Assembly: GCA_947455705.1 (NCBI GenBank) | Contig: CANGPO010000023.1 | Coordinates: 1 to 35,182 of the forward strand | Source of the DNA: Actinomycetota bacterium | GTDB taxonomy: Bacteria > Actinomycetota > Actinomycetes > S36-B12 > CAIYMF01 | Direction: 5' to 3' | Length of the DNA: 35,182 nucleotides | Shown here: one piece after another, positions 2,983 through 9,881 of the stretch | How the letters are laid out: each line of letters opens with the position of its first letter | Position numbering within the stretch: position 1 is the first letter of the stretch | The notes under the pieces: generated by a model | What the model saw: only the letters and a program-made list of their open reading frames with translations | Told to the model about the DNA's origin: nothing | Database searches by the model: none | Translations under genes and position numbers: made by a program

Positions 2983-3612
2983 TCAGAAAGACGCCAAAAC
3001 CTCATTGATGTAGAGCACGGCCATATGGATCTGTGCCTTCAAGAGGGAATCGTTACGTCGTCCACCATGCACGCTGTAATCAACAGCCGAGGTCAGCGCG
3101 ATCACGACGTTGTAAGCCAAGATCTTGGCGTCATGGTCAGGCAGGCGCGGGTTACGCACCTGGAACACAGCGGCAAGTTGATGGCTGACACGATGATCAT
3201 CGTCCCGCTCGGCCGAGTGTAATTCGGGAACAGCGGCATAAATCGCGCGCATGACCAACCCGGCGGGCTCGTCGATACGTAGTTGGGCAATCTCCTTCAG
3301 CCCTGCAAACAAGGTGTCTTCAAGATCATCGGTCTCAAGGGCCTTGAGGTACGGCCTCATAACGATCATCCGGCGATCACTCATTCGCTGAAAGATCTCA
3401 TTGACGATCGCGTACTTATCGGGGAAGTACGAATAAATGGCCGTGATGCTGACTCCTGCTCGCGAGGCGACAGCATTGGTATTGAACGCTTCCCAGCCCG
3501 ACTCCTGAAGGATGTCAGCGGCCGCCGCACAGATACGATCTACGGTCGCTCGCGACCGCGCCTGAACTGGTGTTCGGCGTCGCTGAGCCGGATCGTGGGG
3601 GGTCAATGTCAC
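2983..3612 (-). CDS. TetR family transcriptional regulator
   Basis: A 209-residue regulator. The N-terminal 65 residues give a typical TetR helix-turn-helix: TVDRICAAAADILQESGWEAFNTNAVASRAGVS, then the recognition helix and YSYFPDKYAIVNEIF. The rest is a helical ligand-binding domain that I cannot match to a specific inducer. The start is a GTG with no clear Shine-Dalgarno site. The start codon lies inside an inverted repeat (3607-3626), which could let the protein block its own expression. It is downstream of, and in the same direction as, the OYE gene, but a strong hairpin separates them. Candidate targets are the OYE gene or the amine-oxidase cluster that converges on it. Confidence 0.9.
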   Translation of the reverse strand: MTLTPHDPAQRRRTPVQARSRATVDRICAAAADILQESGWEAFNTNAVASRAGVSITAIYSYFPDKYAIVNEIFQRMSDRRMIVMRPYLKALETDDLEDTLFAGLKEIAQLRIDEPAGLVMRAIYAAVPELHSAERDDDHRVSHQLAAVFQVRNPRLPDHDAKILAYNVVIALTSAVDYSVHGGRRNDSLLKAQIHMAVLYINEVLASF

Positions 3613-3626: not shown

Positions 3627-3733
3627 CGAAATATGCGATCGAGCCTGCAGGAACTGGCCAGATGTAACCCTCGTCTCACTCAACAGGACATAGACCGGAC
3701 ATATCCATCATGATGTCGGGGGTAACGATCTTG

Positions 3734-3778
3734 CACGGGGTGAGGCTCTCGAACGGGGGACGAGAGCCTCACCCCGTG
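3734..3778 (-). terminator. Strong hairpin terminator after the OYE gene
   Basis: An 18-bp perfect stem (3734-3751 paired with 3761-3778) with a nine-base loop, 35 bp beyond the stop codon of the minus-strand OYE gene. No U-tract follows on the minus strand, as is common for actinobacterial terminators. The stem is symmetrical and could also stop plus-strand readthrough. Confidence 0.75.
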
Positions 3779-3812: not shown

Positions 3813-4877
3813 CTAGTGACGGCCGCGAACCAGTTGAGGTGCCCACTCGATGTCGGCACCCAATTCATGTGCGGCTCGCAATGCCCATCGAGGCTCACGC
3901 AGCATCGCCCTGCCGATCATCACCGCATCTGCCTGACCCGAAGAAATGATCTCTTCAGCTTGGGCCGGCTGGGTGATCAAGCCGACTGCCGCCGTCGGAA
4001 CTCCTGCTTCGCGTCGAACAGCCTCCGCGAACGGGACCTGGAAGCCGGGCCCAACCGTGATGGCCTGTCGCGGATCGAGTCCTGCCGTTGACACATCCAC
4101 CAGATCGACACCGAGTGCAGCGGCCTGCCGAGCGAACTCAACCGTTGACGGCAGATCCCAGCCACCCTCAACCCAGTCGGTTGCCGATACGCGCAGCAGT
4201 AATGGGCGGTCGTCTGGCCATACCTCGCGCACATCCCTGATGATCTCCAGGGGGTACGCCATTCGGCCTGCCGCGTCGCCACCGTACTGATCAGTCCGCT
4301 CGTTCGATAGTGGCGAGAGGAACTCGTGTAGAAGGTATCCATGGGCAGCATGAATCTCGATCACATCAACGCCGAGGGCAGCGGCCCGGATCGCTGACTC
4401 AACGAATCCGGCTTTAACTCGGACAAGATCATCGGCGGTCATCTCGCGCGGCACAGCAAACTGGCCGAACGCCAGTGCGGATGGGGCCACCGTCTCCCAG
4501 CCGCCATCTTCGACGGCCACCGAGCCCGAACCCTTCCATGGAGCAACCGTGGATGCTTTCCGGCCCGCATGAGCCAACTGGATACCGAAGCGCACATCCT
4601 GGGTTTCAACAGCGGCCACGATGGGCTCAAGGGCTTCGGCATGTGCATCGGACCAGAGGCCGAGATCTTCTGGGGCGATCCGCCCATCTGAGGTGACGGC
4701 AGTGGCTTCGGTCATCACCAGGCCAGCTCGACCGGTGGCCAGCGCACCAAGGTGGATCAATTGCCAGTGGTTAGCAAGCCCGTCGACGCAGCTGTATTGG
4801 CACATGGGGCTCACCCACGCACGATTACTAAAGGTCGTTCCGCGCAAGGTCAGTGGGCTAAAAAGCTGACTCGTCAT
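3813..4877 (-). CDS. Old Yellow Enzyme family NADH:flavin oxidoreductase (YqjM-like ene-reductase)
   Basis: A 354-residue FMN-dependent TIM-barrel reductase of the thermophilic-like (YqjM/xenobiotic reductase) branch. Cys26 in SPMCQYS is the redox-tuning cysteine of that branch, and Tyr28 follows. QLAHAGRKAS near residue 105 is a flavin/substrate contact. His176 and His179 in the HAAHGYLLHEFLSP region are the pair that binds the activated alkene, and NERTDQYGG follows. The C-terminal half has the phosphate-binding GLI and VMIGRAMLREP segments. Family members reduce C=C bonds next to carbonyl or nitro groups. The frame extends upstream, but homology begins at the ATG at 4877 (MTSQLFSPL). The gene is divergent from the glutaryl-CoA dehydrogenase operon, with a palindrome in the shared 122-bp region. 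Confidence 0.93.
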   Translation of the reverse strand: MTSQLFSPLTLRGTTFSNRAWVSPMCQYSCVDGLANHWQLIHLGALATGRAGLVMTEATAVTSDGRIAPEDLGLWSDAHAEALEPIVAAVETQDVRFGIQLAHAGRKASTVAPWKGSGSVAVEDGGWETVAPSALAFGQFAVPREMTADDLVRVKAGFVESAIRAAALGVDVIEIHAAHGYLLHEFLSPLSNERTDQYGGDAAGRMAYPLEIIRDVREVWPDDRPLLLRVSATDWVEGGWDLPSTVEFARQAAALGVDLVDVSTAGLDPRQAITVGPGFQVPFAEAVRREAGVPTAAVGLITQPAQAEEIISSGQADAVMIGRAMLREPRWALRAAHELGADIEWAPQLVRGRH

Positions 4878-4940
4878 GAGCCTATTTTGGCCGAGCCTGA
4901 TGTGGTCAGCATCACCGGGTGGATATGAGCAACAAACTGG

Positions 4941-4956
4941 ATATTGGATCCAATAT
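4941..4956. promoter_or_regulatory. Perfect 16-bp palindrome, candidate GntR operator
   Basis: ATATTGGATCCAATAT is self-complementary over all 16 bases. It lies 64 bp upstream of the OYE start and 43 bp upstream of the dehydrogenase start, within the divergent promoter region. FCD-type GntR regulators commonly bind short AT-flanked palindromes of this general form, and the third gene of the rightward operon encodes such a regulator. Binding is inferred. Confidence 0.55.
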
Positions 4957-4999
4957 GGTCTACGGTCGTCACACACCATCGTTACGTTCAGGAGTCATC

Positions 5000-6178
5000 A
5001 TGGCCGGCACCCCTCAGTCACCCTTCGCCCTTTTGGACTTGGACGGCTTGCTGTCCGACGAAGAGCGCGCAATCCGCGATGTCGTTCGCAGCTACGTCGA
5101 GAGCCGCATCAAGCCGCATGTGGGCGACTGGTTCGAGGCGGGCACGATTCCCGCTCGCGAGCTGGCAACAGAAATGGGTGAATTGGGTCTGCTCGGCATG
5201 CACCTTGAAGGTTACGGATGTGCTGGCACAAGTGCCACAGCGTACGGACTGGCCTGTCTCGAGCTCGAAGCCGGTGACTCAGGTATTCGCTCGCTCGTGA
5301 GCGTTACCGGATCGCTGGCGATGTATGCCATTCACTCCTTCGGTTCGCAAGAGCAGAAGGACGAATGGCTCCCCCGCATGGCCACCGGTGAGGCACTCGG
5401 TTGCTTTGGCCTCACCGAGGCGGACTTCGGCTCAAACCCCAGCGGTATGCGCACCAACGCAAGGCGCGATGGCGATGACTGGATCATCAACGGTTCGAAA
5501 ATGTGGATCACTAATGGCAATGTGGCAGACGTCGCCGTGGTGTGGGCGCAAACCGATGACGGGATCCGCGGGTTCGTCATTCCGACAAACACGCCAGGAT
5601 TCAATGCACGCGAAATTCACAAGAAGCTGTCCCTTCGTGCATCGATCACTAGTGAACTCACCTTCCAGGATCTACGGTTGCCCGCAAGCGCAATGCTTCC
5701 TGGCGTTAAGGGTCTACGCGGTCCGCTGTCGTGCCTTAATGAAGCGCGGTTCGGCATCGTCTTCGGCACCCTCGGCGCTGCACGTGATTGCCTCGAAACT
5801 GCCATTGACTACGCCATCAACCGTGAACAGTTCGACCGTCCCATCGCTGCATTCCAAATGACGCAGAAGAAGCTTGCCGACATGTGCCTCGAACTCGACA
5901 AGGGTTTCCTGCTCGCTCTGCACTTGGGCCGATTGAAGGATGCACACACGATTCGTCCAGAGCAGGTCAGCGTCGGCAAGCTCAACAATGCGCGCGAATC
6001 CCTTGCTATCGCTCGTGAATGCCGTTCAATCCTCGGTGGAAACGGCATCACCCTTGAGTACCCCATCATCCGCCACATGAACAATCTCGAATCCGTCTTC
6101 ACGTACGAGGGCACAAATGAAATGCACACCCTGGTCGTCGGCGAGGCCTTGACGGGCATTGCCGCCTACCGCGGATGA
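5000..6178 (+). CDS. gcdH: Glutaryl-CoA dehydrogenase (acyl-CoA dehydrogenase family)
   Basis: A 392-residue FAD enzyme that oxidises and decarboxylates glutaryl-CoA to crotonyl-CoA. It has the acyl-CoA dehydrogenase layout: an N-terminal helical domain to about residue 125, a beta domain with CFGLTEADFGSNPSGM and WIINGSKMWITNG, and a C-terminal helical domain with NREQFDRPIAAFQMTQKKLADM and ILGGNGI. The features that point to the glutaryl branch are Arg97 in a GIRSLVSVTGSLAM segment, for the distal carboxylate, and the catalytic-base region FTYEGTNEMHTLVVGEALTG with Glu370. The frame opens further upstream, but AGGAG at 4990-4994, five bases before the ATG at 5000, decides the start. It overlaps the CoA-transferase gene by four bases. 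Confidence 0.92.
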   Translation: MAGTPQSPFALLDLDGLLSDEERAIRDVVRSYVESRIKPHVGDWFEAGTIPARELATEMGELGLLGMHLEGYGCAGTSATAYGLACLELEAGDSGIRSLVSVTGSLAMYAIHSFGSQEQKDEWLPRMATGEALGCFGLTEADFGSNPSGMRTNARRDGDDWIINGSKMWITNGNVADVAVVWAQTDDGIRGFVIPTNTPGFNAREIHKKLSLRASITSELTFQDLRLPASAMLPGVKGLRGPLSCLNEARFGIVFGTLGAARDCLETAIDYAINREQFDRPIAAFQMTQKKLADMCLELDKGFLLALHLGRLKDAHTIRPEQVSVGKLNNARESLAIARECRSILGGNGITLEYPIIRHMNNLESVFTYEGTNEMHTLVVGEALTGIAAYRG

Positions 6179-7302
6179 CCGGGGCCCTCGACGGCATCGT
6201 CGTCGCCGATTTCTCGCGGGTGCTCGCGGGCCCATACGCAACGATGCTGCTCGGTGATCTCGGCGCAGAAGTCGTCAAGGTTGAACGCGCGGGCGTCGGC
6301 GACGACACCCGCGGTTGGGGTCCTCCCTATGATCCGACGGGTATGGCCACCTACTTCGGTTCGATCAACCGCAATAAGTCGTCACTGTTTCTTGATCTGG
6401 GATCCGACGCTGGGATGACACAGGCACGTGCCTTGGCACAGCGCGCAGACATCATGATCGAAAACTTCAAGCCGGGTGCCTTTGATCGCATGGGCCTTGG
6501 GTACGAAGCCATCAGCGCGGTGAACCCGGGCGTGATCTACTGCTCGATCAGCGGGTTTGGATCTGGTGCTGGAGCAGAACTGCCCGGCTACGATCTGTTG
6601 GTACAAGCAATGGGTGGGCTGATGTCCGTCACGGGCCCCGGTCCCGGTGAACCCACCAAGGTAGGCGTTGCTCTCGTAGACGTCATCACCGGGTTGCACG
6701 CTGTTTACGGAATCCTCGCCGCCCTTCATCACCGCAACGTTACTGGCGTGGGCCAGCACATTGAGGTCAACCTACTTTCGTCATTGCTCTCAGCGATGGT
6801 CAATCAATCCGCAGCACAGGTTGCCGGCGGGGTCACCCCTGGGATTCTCGGGAACGATCATCCCTCGATAACGCCGTACTCTGTGTACGCAACAGGCGAT
6901 CGACCCCTGATCATCGCAGTCGGCAACGATCGACAATTCCGGTCAGCTGCAACGGTGCTCGGTATTGCTGAGATGGCCGACGATGAACGATTCGCCACGA
7001 ACACCGCTCGCGTTGCACATCGCGATCTCGTTCGGTCGATGATGGAAGCACGACTGGTTACGATGGGTGCCGATCACTGGTACGCAGAACTCACGAAGGT
7101 CGGCGTACCGTCAGGCCCGATCAACGACCTGGCCACCGCGTTCAGTCTGGCCACCGAGCTGGGGCTCAATCCCGTTGTGAATGCAGCCGGGTCACCCATA
7201 CCCCTAGTCGCTAACCCAGTGCGCATGTCCGCAACCCCACCGTCGTATCGGCTAGCCCCTCCGGTGATGCAATCGACAACGGAATCCGAGGACGGTTCAT
7301 GA
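6175..7302 (+). CDS. CaiB/BaiF-type (class III) CoA-transferase, probably acting on glutarate
   Basis: A 375-residue class III CoA-transferase. The N-terminus shows the family signature (LDGIVVADFSRVLAGPYATMLLGDLGAEVVKVE), followed by a motif region with NRNKSSLFLDL and IENFKPG. Asp140 in GYDLLVQA is the expected aspartate that carries the acyl anhydride intermediate. GQHIEVNLLSSLLSAM and a C-terminal GVPSGPINDLATA segment also match the family. These enzymes swap CoA between acyl-CoA donors and dicarboxylates or other acids. The 4-bp overlap with glutaryl-CoA dehydrogenase makes a succinyl-CoA:glutarate transferase role, as in human SUGCT, the most economical reading, but the substrate is inferred from context. 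It also overlaps the GntR gene by four bases. Confidence 0.9.
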   Translation: MTGALDGIVVADFSRVLAGPYATMLLGDLGAEVVKVERAGVGDDTRGWGPPYDPTGMATYFGSINRNKSSLFLDLGSDAGMTQARALAQRADIMIENFKPGAFDRMGLGYEAISAVNPGVIYCSISGFGSGAGAELPGYDLLVQAMGGLMSVTGPGPGEPTKVGVALVDVITGLHAVYGILAALHHRNVTGVGQHIEVNLLSSLLSAMVNQSAAQVAGGVTPGILGNDHPSITPYSVYATGDRPLIIAVGNDRQFRSAATVLGIAEMADDERFATNTARVAHRDLVRSMMEARLVTMGADHWYAELTKVGVPSGPINDLATAFSLATELGLNPVVNAAGSPIPLVANPVRMSATPPSYRLAPPVMQSTTESEDGS

Positions 7303-7973
7303 CCGCTGCCATCTTCAGCAAGCCACCAACTGCGCAGGAGGCCGTGTTGGCCGAGATGCGACGCTTGCTGGTCACTGGCGAGTTGGCACCGGGCACCCCG
7401 ATCCGTCAGGAGGCCTTGGCTGACCGGCTTGGGGTCTCCCGAGTACCTGTGCGCGAGGCGCTCAAGGTCCTCGAGGGGGAAGGACATGTGGAGTATTCAG
7501 CGCATCGCGGATACGTCGTGGCCGAACTCTCCGTAGAGGATCTCGTCGAGGTATACCGACTACGTGAACTCCTTGAGGCTGAGGCGATTCGAGTAGCGGT
7601 ACCCAAACTGAGGGCAGCTGATCTGATCACTCTCGAGCAAGCCGCAGCCGAAGTTACCGCAGCGGGTAAACGCGCCGACTTGGCCGATGTCACCGCCGCT
7701 AATCGCATGTTCCACTTCCTGCTGTTTGACGCGGCCGGTCTACCGCGCTTATCGCGTACTCTCCGGCAGCTATGGGATGCCACTGACGTCTACCGATCGG
7801 TGTATTTTGCTTTACCGACCAATCTGCAAAGAGTGAACGACGAACACGACGAACTCATGGCGGCGCTCCAAGCCGGCGATGCCAAAGCCGCCATAGCAGC
7901 CCAAGCCGCGCACAGGGCCCACTCCGTCGAGGCAGTGAGTAACGCTCTAACGACACAACCGTTAGTTGGCTAG
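7299..7973 (+). CDS. GntR family transcriptional regulator with FCD domain
   Basis: A 224-residue regulator. Residues about 10-78 form the winged helix of GntR proteins: LLVTGELAPGTPIRQEALADRLGVSRVPVREALKVLEGEGHV and the AHRGYVVAEL wing. Residues about 85-215 are an all-helical FCD effector domain with YRLRELLEAEAIRVAV, then FHFLLFDAAGL and EHDELMAALQAGDAKAA. The histidines and the acidic residue that often bind a metal in FCD domains appear to be present (N/H in ANRMFHF, and EHDE). It is the last gene of the glutarate operon, with a GTGA-like four-base overlap, so it is made together with the enzymes. Autoregulation through the palindrome at 4941-4956 is likely but unproven. Confidence 0.92.
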   Translation: MTAAIFSKPPTAQEAVLAEMRRLLVTGELAPGTPIRQEALADRLGVSRVPVREALKVLEGEGHVEYSAHRGYVVAELSVEDLVEVYRLRELLEAEAIRVAVPKLRAADLITLEQAAAEVTAAGKRADLADVTAANRMFHFLLFDAAGLPRLSRTLRQLWDATDVYRSVYFALPTNLQRVNDEHDELMAALQAGDAKAAIAAQAAHRAHSVEAVSNALTTQPLVG

Positions 7974-7988
7974 ACCGAGTCGATCCCG

Positions 7989-9881
7989 TTATTCGCCAGG
8001 CTGTTCCAGTAGCGGCCTGATCCGATCCAAAACGCTTATGTCATCGATCGTGCTCGGTGGCGCTTCGGGACGTCCATCTGCGATTCCGCGCATTGTGCGA
8101 CGCAAGATCTTGCCCGAGCGAGTCTTGGGTAATGCGGGTACGACAACCACGGACTTCAACGCGGCAACGGGACCGATCTGATCTCGAATAGCTGCCACAA
8201 CCTCGGCCTGCAAGACCGCTGGTTCGATCTCTACGCCACTCTTGAGCACAACGAACGCACGTGGCACCTGTCCCTTGAGCGCATCTGCAACACCGATCAC
8301 GGCGCACTCGGCAACCGCTGGATGGGTCGCGACGACTGCCTCCATCGATCCCGTCGAAAGACGGTGACCGGCAACGTTGATGACATCGTCCGTGCGACCC
8401 ATGACGTAGACGTAACCATCGGCATCGACATTTCCGCCATCGCCGGTGGCGTAGTAGCCGGGGAACACCGATAAATATGAATCCACGTAACGCTGGTCAT
8501 CATTCCAGAGCGTCGGCAAGGTACCGGGCGGCAACGGCAACCTGATAGCGATGTTGCCGTCGACGCCGGCCTCGAGTAGGTGACCGTTCTCATCGAGAAC
8601 GTCGACGATGTATCCCGGCATTGGCAAACTCGGCGAACCTGGCTTGATGGGAAGATCGTCGAAGCCACGCGGACTTGCCGCGATGGGCCAACCGGTCTCG
8701 GTCTGCCACCAGTTGTCGACGATAGGAATTCCCAGGTGCCTACTCGCCCAATGGTAGGTTTCCGGATCCAACCGCTCCCCCGCTAAGAACAGTGTCCGCA
8801 GGGATGAGATGTCATAACCGGTTAAGAGTTCGGCAGCAGGATCCTCTTTCTTGATCGCGCGGAATGCCGTCGGCGCAGTGAACAGAGCATTGACTTTGTG
8901 TTCAGCAACAACCCGCCAAAAGGCTCCCGCATCCGGCGTTCCAACCGGCTTCCCTTCGTACAAAACGGTCGTGGCGCCAGCCAACAGCGGGGCATAAACG
9001 ATGTATGAATGCCCGACGACCCATCCGACATCGCTTGCCGCCCAGAATACTTCACCGGCGTTGACACCGTAGATGTTTGGCAGACTCCACGTCAGGGCAA
9101 CCGCATGGCCACCGTTGTCGCGAACGATTCCCTTCGGTTTTCCTGTGGTGCCAGAGGTGTAAAGAATGTAGAGCGGATCAGTCGCGTCAACGGTCACGCA
9201 ATCATGTGGCGTCGCAGCCGCCATCGATTCGACCCAGTCGTGATCGATGGCACCCAATTCCGCATGTGCTTGCGGTCGCTGAAGAATCACCGTGGCCGTT
9301 GGCTTGTGCTCGGCAAGTTCCAGGGCTTTGTCGAGCATCGGCTTGTACTCGATCACCCGTGCACCTTCGATCCCACACGAGGCCGAGACAACAACCGTTG
9401 GTGTGGCGTCATCAATGCGAATCGCGAGCTCATGGGGAGCGAAGCCACCGAATACGACGGAGTGGACCGCGCCAAGACGGGCGGTGGCCAGCATGGCGAT
9501 GACAGCCTCGGGCACCATCGGCATGTAAATGATGACCCGATCCCCTGCCACGACTCCGAGTGAAGCCAAAACCCCGGCGAACAGAGCAACCTCGTCTCGT
9601 AGTTCTCGATACGTCAGCGATCGAGACGCATCAGTAACGGCGCTGTCATAGATCAGCGCAGTGCGGTCACCATGCCCAGCGTCGACGTGTCGATCGACCG
9701 CGTTAAAGCAGGTGTTGAGTCGGCCGCCACGGAACCACCGGTAGTACGGCGCATTGGAATCGTCCAGTACCGAGGTTGGCGGCTCGACCCAATCAACAAG
9801 CTGAGCGGCCTCGCCCCAGAACGCAACCGGATCACTGACACTGCGCGCATACGTCGCTTGGTAGTTACCTGCTGATCCCAT
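7989..9881 (-). CDS. prpE: Propionyl-CoA synthetase (acetyl-CoA synthetase-like, AMP-forming)
   Basis: A 630-residue AMP-forming acyl-CoA ligase. The N-terminus has the ACS leader with PYYRWFRGGRLNTCFNAVDRHV. The P-loop is YILYTSGTTGKPKG followed by IVRDNGGHAVAL, and the RDNGGH sequence is typical of the PrpE/ACSS3 group. Further motifs are WAASDVGWVVGHSY, WWQTETGWPIAA, YYATGDGG and the C-terminal RSGKILRR, whose lysine is needed for adenylation and is often regulated by acetylation. It activates propionate, and probably acetate and other short acids. AAAGGAG precedes the ATG at a proper distance. It begins 26 bp after rlmN ends and runs in the same direction, so it could be read through from the cdsA-rlmN transcript. 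It converges on the GntR gene with 15 bp between stops. Confidence 0.93.
   Translation of the reverse strand: MGSAGNYQATYARSVSDPVAFWGEAAQLVDWVEPPTSVLDDSNAPYYRWFRGGRLNTCFNAVDRHVDAGHGDRTALIYDSAVTDASRSLTYRELRDEVALFAGVLASLGVVAGDRVIIYMPMVPEAVIAMLATARLGAVHSVVFGGFAPHELAIRIDDATPTVVVSASCGIEGARVIEYKPMLDKALELAEHKPTATVILQRPQAHAELGAIDHDWVESMAAATPHDCVTVDATDPLYILYTSGTTGKPKGIVRDNGGHAVALTWSLPNIYGVNAGEVFWAASDVGWVVGHSYIVYAPLLAGATTVLYEGKPVGTPDAGAFWRVVAEHKVNALFTAPTAFRAIKKEDPAAELLTGYDISSLRTLFLAGERLDPETYHWASRHLGIPIVDNWWQTETGWPIAASPRGFDDLPIKPGSPSLPMPGYIVDVLDENGHLLEAGVDGNIAIRLPLPPGTLPTLWNDDQRYVDSYLSVFPGYYATGDGGNVDADGYVYVMGRTDDVINVAGHRLSTGSMEAVVATHPAVAECAVIGVADALKGQVPRAFVVLKSGVEIEPAVLQAEVVAAIRDQIGPVAALKSVVVVPALPKTRSGKILRRTMRGIADGRPEAPPSTIDDISVLDRIRPLLEQPGE

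Follow-up and report, generated by a model that had tools for sequence, protein, structure and literature searches.

A perfect palindrome lies between the divergent genes for an OYE-family oxidoreductase and a glutaryl-CoA dehydrogenase (gcdH), which raises the question of whether it is the operator of the GntR protein encoded by the third gene of the gcdH operon or a product of chance. The window, by which we mean the whole 35,182-nt stretch of DNA analysed, contains the palindrome ATATTGGATCCAATAT (Table 1). It is fully self-complementary and has no second match in the window at up to three mismatches, in agreement with the perfect 16-bp palindrome claimed in the first-pass annotation, and its location within the 122-bp divergent gap between the OYE gene and gcdH bears out the divergent promoter region, close to both starts, described there. 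The bare palindrome is unremarkable. One palindrome of at least 16 bp is seen in the window against 0.8 expected from first-order Markov sequences, at least one was present in 31 of 60 such simulations, and palindromes of at least 12 bp number 14 against an expected 12.5. Because symmetry alone is at chance level, the reality of the site has to be decided by conservation, and it is conservation that makes it real.

Genes around the palindrome

The three genes to the right of the palindrome are ordered gcdH, CoA-transferase and gntR, with neighbouring coding regions overlapping by 4 bp each, which makes a single transcript likely. The ATG of gcdH is preceded by AGGAG at 4990. On the other side, the OYE frame extends without a stop codon to an ATG at 4979. 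The start given in Table 1 was preferred on two grounds: counted from it, the Pfam match sets in at residue 4, and the alignments with relatives include the first residue.

Table 1. Features of the palindrome region and the adjoining genes, in window coordinates
Feature	Position	Strand	Remarks
OYE-family flavin oxidoreductase, divergent	3813..4877	-	PF00724
-35-like CTGGAT, abutting the operator	4937..4942	+	predicted; TGNAT here in 10/10 genus loci
16-bp perfect palindrome	4941..4956	.	outer 2 bp on the right not conserved
Conserved operator core ATTGGATCCAAT	4943..4954	.	5' of gcdH in 10/10 genus loci and most ortholog loci
-10-like TACGGT (TANNNT)	4961..4966	+	predicted; 18-nt spacer from the -35-like element
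gcdH, glutaryl-CoA dehydrogenase, first gene of the operon	5000..6178	+	Pfam acyl-CoA dehydrogenase domains; best PDB match 3sf6
CoA-transferase family III (CaiB type), probably glutarate CoA-transferase	6175..7302	+	PF02515; NCBIfam and PDB matches
GntR/FCD transcriptional regulator, proposed operator binder	7299..7973	+	PF00392 and PF07729 above cut-off

The assignment of these genes to glutarate catabolism, made in the first-pass annotation, is supported by comparison with solved structures and protein family models. The best solved match of GcdH (E 1.7e-188) is named glutaryl-CoA dehydrogenase, as are nine of its top ten PDB matches (one as 'putative'), the tenth being an acyl-CoA dehydrogenase, and the following match drops from 362 to 230 bits. 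GcdH scores 198.7 bits against the NCBIfam model NF045552 (GlutCoADH_Des; cut-off 470), and no NCBIfam equivalog model was passed. For the CoA-transferase, the best NCBIfam model is succinate--glutarate CoA-transferase at 340 bits, under its cut-off of 750, and the PDB matches include succinate--hydroxymethylglutarate CoA-transferase. A PrpE-like acyl-CoA synthetase gene (7989-9881) is convergent with gntR in the window and is found near the cluster in many relatives. By eye, an inverted repeat is visible at 3733-3778, between a TetR gene (2983-3612) and the OYE gene; its arms of about 17 bp (CACGGGGTGAGGCTCTCG.../...GAGAGCCTCACCCCGTG) probably form a terminator.

The regulator belongs to the FCD subfamily of the GntR family, with both the N-terminal winged helix (PF00392, 52.2 bits, cut-off 27) and the C-terminal FCD domain (PF07729, 85.1 bits, cut-off 24.3) present. 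Its AlphaFold2 model has a pLDDT of 91.8 and matches FCD regulators in the PDB, VanR types among them. The protein scores 48.4 bits against the NCBIfam CsiR model NF008576, well under its cut-off of 218. Across 26 aligned sequences H139, H183 and H205 are invariant and N135 is conserved in at least 90%, with a spacing like that of the metal site of the VanR-type repressor Atu1419 in a sequence-only comparison; N135 and H139 form an N-x3-H start as in the Atu1419 zinc site. The FCD domain and fold matches together with these four residues make a small acid a plausible effector. V49, in an SRVP stretch, is invariant in orthologs and might matter for the recognition of the off-consensus box TTGG/CCAA.

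Conservation of the site and of the regulator

Within the genus of the window, 10 of 11 genomes encode a GntR ortholog of at least 68% identity, and in every one of these ten (drafts, 88-99% complete) ATTGGATMCAAT occurs exactly once, upstream of gcdH. The count of the motif upstream of gcdH in related genomes, proposed as a check in the first-pass annotation, consequently showed it to be conserved. The core has the form ATTGGATCCAAT in nine of these loci and ATTGGATACAAT in one. In the 2.98-Mb draft genome from which the window derives, the core is the only site at up to one mismatch to ATTGKATMCAAT. A second TTGGATCCAA in this genome (G000:C26:3026) was not counted, as it lies within a long open reading frame (1466-3952 of L081) and differs at both outer bases of the 12-mer.

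Alignment of the ten genus loci shows that the right-hand flank of the core varies and that TGNAT directly precedes the core in all of them. This conservation limits the probable functional unit to the inner 12 bp, and the left-flank TGNAT looks like a -35 element rather than a part of the palindrome. The eleventh genus genome (G004) has a gcdH that is 87% identical and contains neither a GntR ortholog nor ATTGGATMCAAT. It carries ATTGGATACCGT, with two mismatches, about 46 nt upstream of gcdH (L245 near 2711), which looks like an operator decaying once the regulator was lost.

To cover a wider range of genomes, GntR homologs were searched for in 99 genomes including the window's own, yielding matches in 73, and the neighbourhoods of 46 of the better matches were taken (L033-L078). 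In this set of relatives, a site with at most one mismatch was present near a gene start at 38 of the 39 loci that combine a GntR protein of at least 50% identity with GcdH or CoA-transferase nearby. Among the named loci with an ortholog alignment, which are the best 80 of 508, the same combination was found 41 times, with a site at up to one mismatch in 36, at two mismatches in two more and none in three; after removal of 10 repeats of the relatives set, 26 of 31 carry a site with at most one mismatch. GntR homologs of less than 40% identity are accompanied by the site in 1 of 24 cases. The relatives share ancestry, and these counts do not represent independent events. Gene orders vary among the loci and include gcdH-CoA-transferase-gntR, CoA-transferase-gntR-gcdH and divergent gcdH/CoA-transferase, and in Saccharopolyspora and Actinomadura gntR is transcribed away from the genes it presumably controls; in one Actinomadura locus (L137) the site stands between gcdH and gntR. 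In other actinobacteria and with other gene orders the site still accompanies the regulator, and is found at whichever promoter would have to be controlled. The pairing does not hold everywhere: 8 of the named orthologs of at least 50% identity (again among the best 80 of 508) that lack GcdH and CoA-transferase nearby show no site at the start of gntR.

Arthrobacter and Pseudarthrobacter orthologs without gcdH nearby show a near-site (two mismatches to ATTGGATCCAAT) just past gntR (L146:5692, L148:5697 and L150:5689), which in L146 precedes a short-chain dehydrogenase gene. In a class-wide scan TTGGATMCAAT occurred in 82 of 296 genomes; these occurrences come without gene contexts and were not used as evidence. 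Four genomes of one family (f30; G124, G142, G159 and G173) each have 3-4 TTGGATMCAAT places, of which two are separated by about 3.3 kb, a spacing like that of a GntR locus.

Presence of the regulator (best E at most 1e-40) and of an exact site was tabulated for 60 genomes including the window's own. Both are present in 25, neither in 28, the regulator alone in 4 and the site alone in 3, so that 53 of the 60 genomes show agreement (Fisher p 1.7e-9, with no correction for relatedness). The four genomes with an ortholog and no exact site are G011, G015, G017 and G038, with near-sites in G011 and G017. The site without a close ortholog occurs in G044, G045 and G051, and in G022, one of the 25 genomes with both, the two sites lie at unrelated genes. 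Among the 31 genomes lacking the ortholog, 28 had been picked as having no exact site, a biased choice that leaves the near-site result as the informative one for them, and the three site-only genomes were added. A gcdH gene (E 1e-60 or better) is present in 18 of the 31. Upstream of these 18 genes one exact site (G044) and one two-mismatch remnant (G004) are found, and the best 12-mer has 3-6 mismatches in the remaining 16, including loci where the CoA-transferase is still nearby.

Site targets in the small-genome family

A related family with small genomes, in what is probably the order Candidatus Nanopelagicales like the window, carries sites at several loci. Exact sites in 13 members of this small-genome family with a close ortholog occupy 38 distinct loci, 36 of which lie at four targets. 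By our own tally these are the CoA-transferase in all 13 genomes, usually followed by gntR, etfB in 11, gcdH in 8, where paired sites are 20-21 bp apart, and crotonyl-CoA carboxylase/reductase (ccr) in 3. Target names are based on one scanned member each (L194: PF01012/PF00766; L195: TIGR01751, 600 bits against 379); the remaining members were named from tblastn similarity. The 13 genomes have a best E of 2.2e-66 or lower, except for G100, which was counted on the strength of a separate analysis; the next best values among the small-genome members searched for sites are 5.1e-55 and 3.2e-50. In family members without a close ortholog none of 8 site loci is at such a target. Of the two remaining loci, both in one genome (G068), one is at an ABC transporter (SBP_bac_5, OppC-like permease); at the other the site separates the divergent genes for an amino-acid permease and a class III aminotransferase (L229:2037-2048), a pair that hints at lysine or aminovalerate input.

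GcdH hands electrons to ETF and yields crotonyl-CoA, and the target set is thus what a regulator of the glutaryl-CoA pathway should control. The window's own genome contains a crotonyl-CoA carboxylase/reductase (604 bits) and has no site there, which indicates that the larger regulon is lineage-specific.

Promoter geometry, mode of action and known systems

The collection of distinct sites numbers 95, obtained from 117 by removing same-target contexts more than 85% identical (loci L033-L078, L113-L162 and L191-L243 and the window). Among distinct C-type gcdH sites, 21 of 39 are followed by TANNNT beginning 4-7 nt past the core, compared with 0-4 of 39 in control windows; the other 18 lack it at these positions. 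In the window the predicted layout reads CTGGAT, core, TACGGT, a transcript start near 4973, AGGAG and ATG; a generic sigma-70 scan of the OYE-gcdH gap detected no consensus promoter. A-type sites (ATTGGATACAAT) direct TACAAT toward the gene in 26 of 26 CoA-transferase, 10 of 10 gcdH and 2 of 2 ccr cases, and those at etf show no preferred orientation (toward the gene in 3, away from it in 4). In 23 of 26 CoA-transferase cases the A-type site has an ATG or GTG exactly 6 nt further on, and these sites apparently supply the -10 element of leaderless genes. A protein bound to either type would cover promoter elements, which makes repression the natural reading.

We conclude that ATTGGATCCAAT is very probably the operator through which an FCD/GntR protein, encoded by the third gene of the operon and so subject to its own control, represses glutaryl-CoA catabolism. 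The conserved site coincides with predicted promoter elements of the regulator's own operon, as expected of an autoregulated local repressor. A GntR/FCD dimer would occupy the palindrome in the spacer of the gcdH promoter, between its -35 and -10 elements, and block RNA polymerase, so that gcdH, the CoA-transferase gene and the regulator's own gene would be repressed together until an acidic pathway metabolite (glutarate, glutaryl-CoA or crotonyl-CoA) released the repressor. Binding, dimer stoichiometry, repression rather than activation and the effector are what we infer from the sequences. The first-pass annotation had put the palindrome forward as the GntR operator; this proposal is strongly supported by comparative footprinting, co-occurrence, regulon and promoter geometry as far as the 12-bp core is concerned, and does not extend to the right outer 2 bp of the palindrome, which are not conserved. 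This mode of action is ordinary for its kind.

Three other accounts of the site were weighed against repression by the local GntR protein. A chance feature, of which 0.8 would be expected per window, is contradicted by conservation, regulator co-occurrence and the regulon data, leaving this account with a negligible probability. The site could alternatively be the motif of a different regulator of acyl-CoA metabolism that merely lies near GntR, in keeping with the exact site of G044 (L209:2333) at a gcdH-CoA-transferase locus in a genome whose best GntR match reaches no more than 33% identity. Site and GntR are nevertheless both present or both absent in the great majority of the tabulated genomes, gcdH/CoA-transferase loci without GntR have at least 4 mismatches in their best upstream 12-mer (L247-L251 and L255; 3 in L266), and the Saccharopolyspora site lies between a divergent CoA-transferase gene and gntR, which together render a different regulator very improbable. 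Activation, with metabolite-bound GntR recruiting polymerase to gcdH, would have a parallel in the LysR protein GcdR of Pseudomonas putida, which activates gcdH with glutarate as effector (PMC6667623). Against it, the core is placed so that a bound protein should block polymerase, either in the spacer separating the -35-like from the -10-like element or with the -10 inside it, and the FCD relative Atu1419, whose sites have such placements, is a repressor (PMC7797058); we regard activation as quite improbable.

The operator might also act in both directions, with GntR repressing the divergent OYE gene as well and tying the ene-reductase to glutarate. The 122-bp divergent gap has its one site close to the midpoint, from where both genes could be served; G005 and G007 share the divergent arrangement of OYE and gcdH, and according to a survey of FadR-subfamily divergons both operons are usually served by one site (PMC4494728). 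The link between ene-reductase and glutarate control suggested in the first-pass annotation, however, finds no support as a conserved trait. OYE is encoded in 10 of 11 genus genomes and in 9 of the 10 with the regulator, and adjoins gcdH in three only (G000, G005 and G007); six other regulator-bearing genomes carry it on a different contig, with their single site at gcdH, and one yielded no OYE. By eye, the three aligned gaps share no common promoter element on the OYE side. Control of OYE by the operator is possible for the window's own arrangement, and as a reading of the site it is unlikely.

Beyond repression of the local operon, we think it rather probable that the data describe a so far undescribed regulator-operator pair at the actinobacterial glutaryl-CoA to crotonyl-CoA node, expanded in the small-genome family into a pathway regulon of glutarate activation, GcdH, ETF and ccr (with the permease/aminotransferase pair in one genome), in which a change of one operator base (C to A) would turn a site within the promoter spacer into one that itself forms the -10 of leaderless genes. 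A literature search covering mostly freely accessible papers, with RegPrecise outside its scope, returned the Pseudomonas system and no description of this actinobacterial pair. ATTGGATCCAAT occurs in 37 papers and TTGGATCCAA in 156; among the 20 listed for each there was no GntR title, and they look like chance or primer matches; combining motif and GntR gave no paper with TTGGATACAA or ATTGTATACAAT, and TTGGATCCAA only in a cellulase paper. An apparently unstudied actinobacterial regulator thereby gains a testable operator and a pathway. The results suggest that small-genome Nanopelagicales relatives couple the breakdown of glutarate, perhaps derived from lysine, to crotonyl-CoA carboxylation through one switch, and this wider regulon is worth following. 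Within the genus the operator is short, occurs once per genome and departs from the family consensus, which makes it a clean case for the study of GntR specificity, and it is a possible part for glutarate sensors.

Four published systems come closest to the window's site and regulator. One is Atu1419 of Agrobacterium fabrum, a VanR-type FCD/GntR repressor with the operator ATGTATACAT, whose 10-bp palindromes overlap the -10 or lie between -10 and -35 (PMC7797058). It resembles the window's regulator in its FCD fold (by model match), the proposed role as a local catabolic repressor, a short perfect palindrome and both site placements, and its metal site, Asn137/His141/His192/His214 (PMC7797058), is similar in spacing to Asn135, His139, His183 and His205. 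Atu1419 differs in its operator sequence and in its pathway, hydroxycinnamate rather than glutarate, and tetramer formation and looping have been shown for it, whereas the window's regulator is known from sequence and model and has one site per genome in the genus. In Pseudomonas putida, CsiR (GntR) and GcdR (LysR) regulate glutarate catabolism with glutarate as effector of both; unlike in the window, it is the LysR activator that governs gcdH there, and the targets of the GntR protein are csiD and lhgO (PMC6667623). FadR-subfamily operators, with the published consensus TKGT/ACMA, in some groups with 2-nt spacing (PMC4494728), share with the window's site an AT-rich palindrome read by a winged helix and a single site in a divergent gap. 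The window's box TTGG/CCAA departs from that consensus, and the canonical ACAA appears on one side of A-type sites only. HypR of Streptomyces coelicolor, with the binding motif CTNTGC(A/C)ATGTCAC and a role in the hydroxyproline pathway, is likewise an autorepressing actinobacterial GntR-type repressor of an amino-acid catabolic operon, and differs in motif and pathway (PMC6608401).
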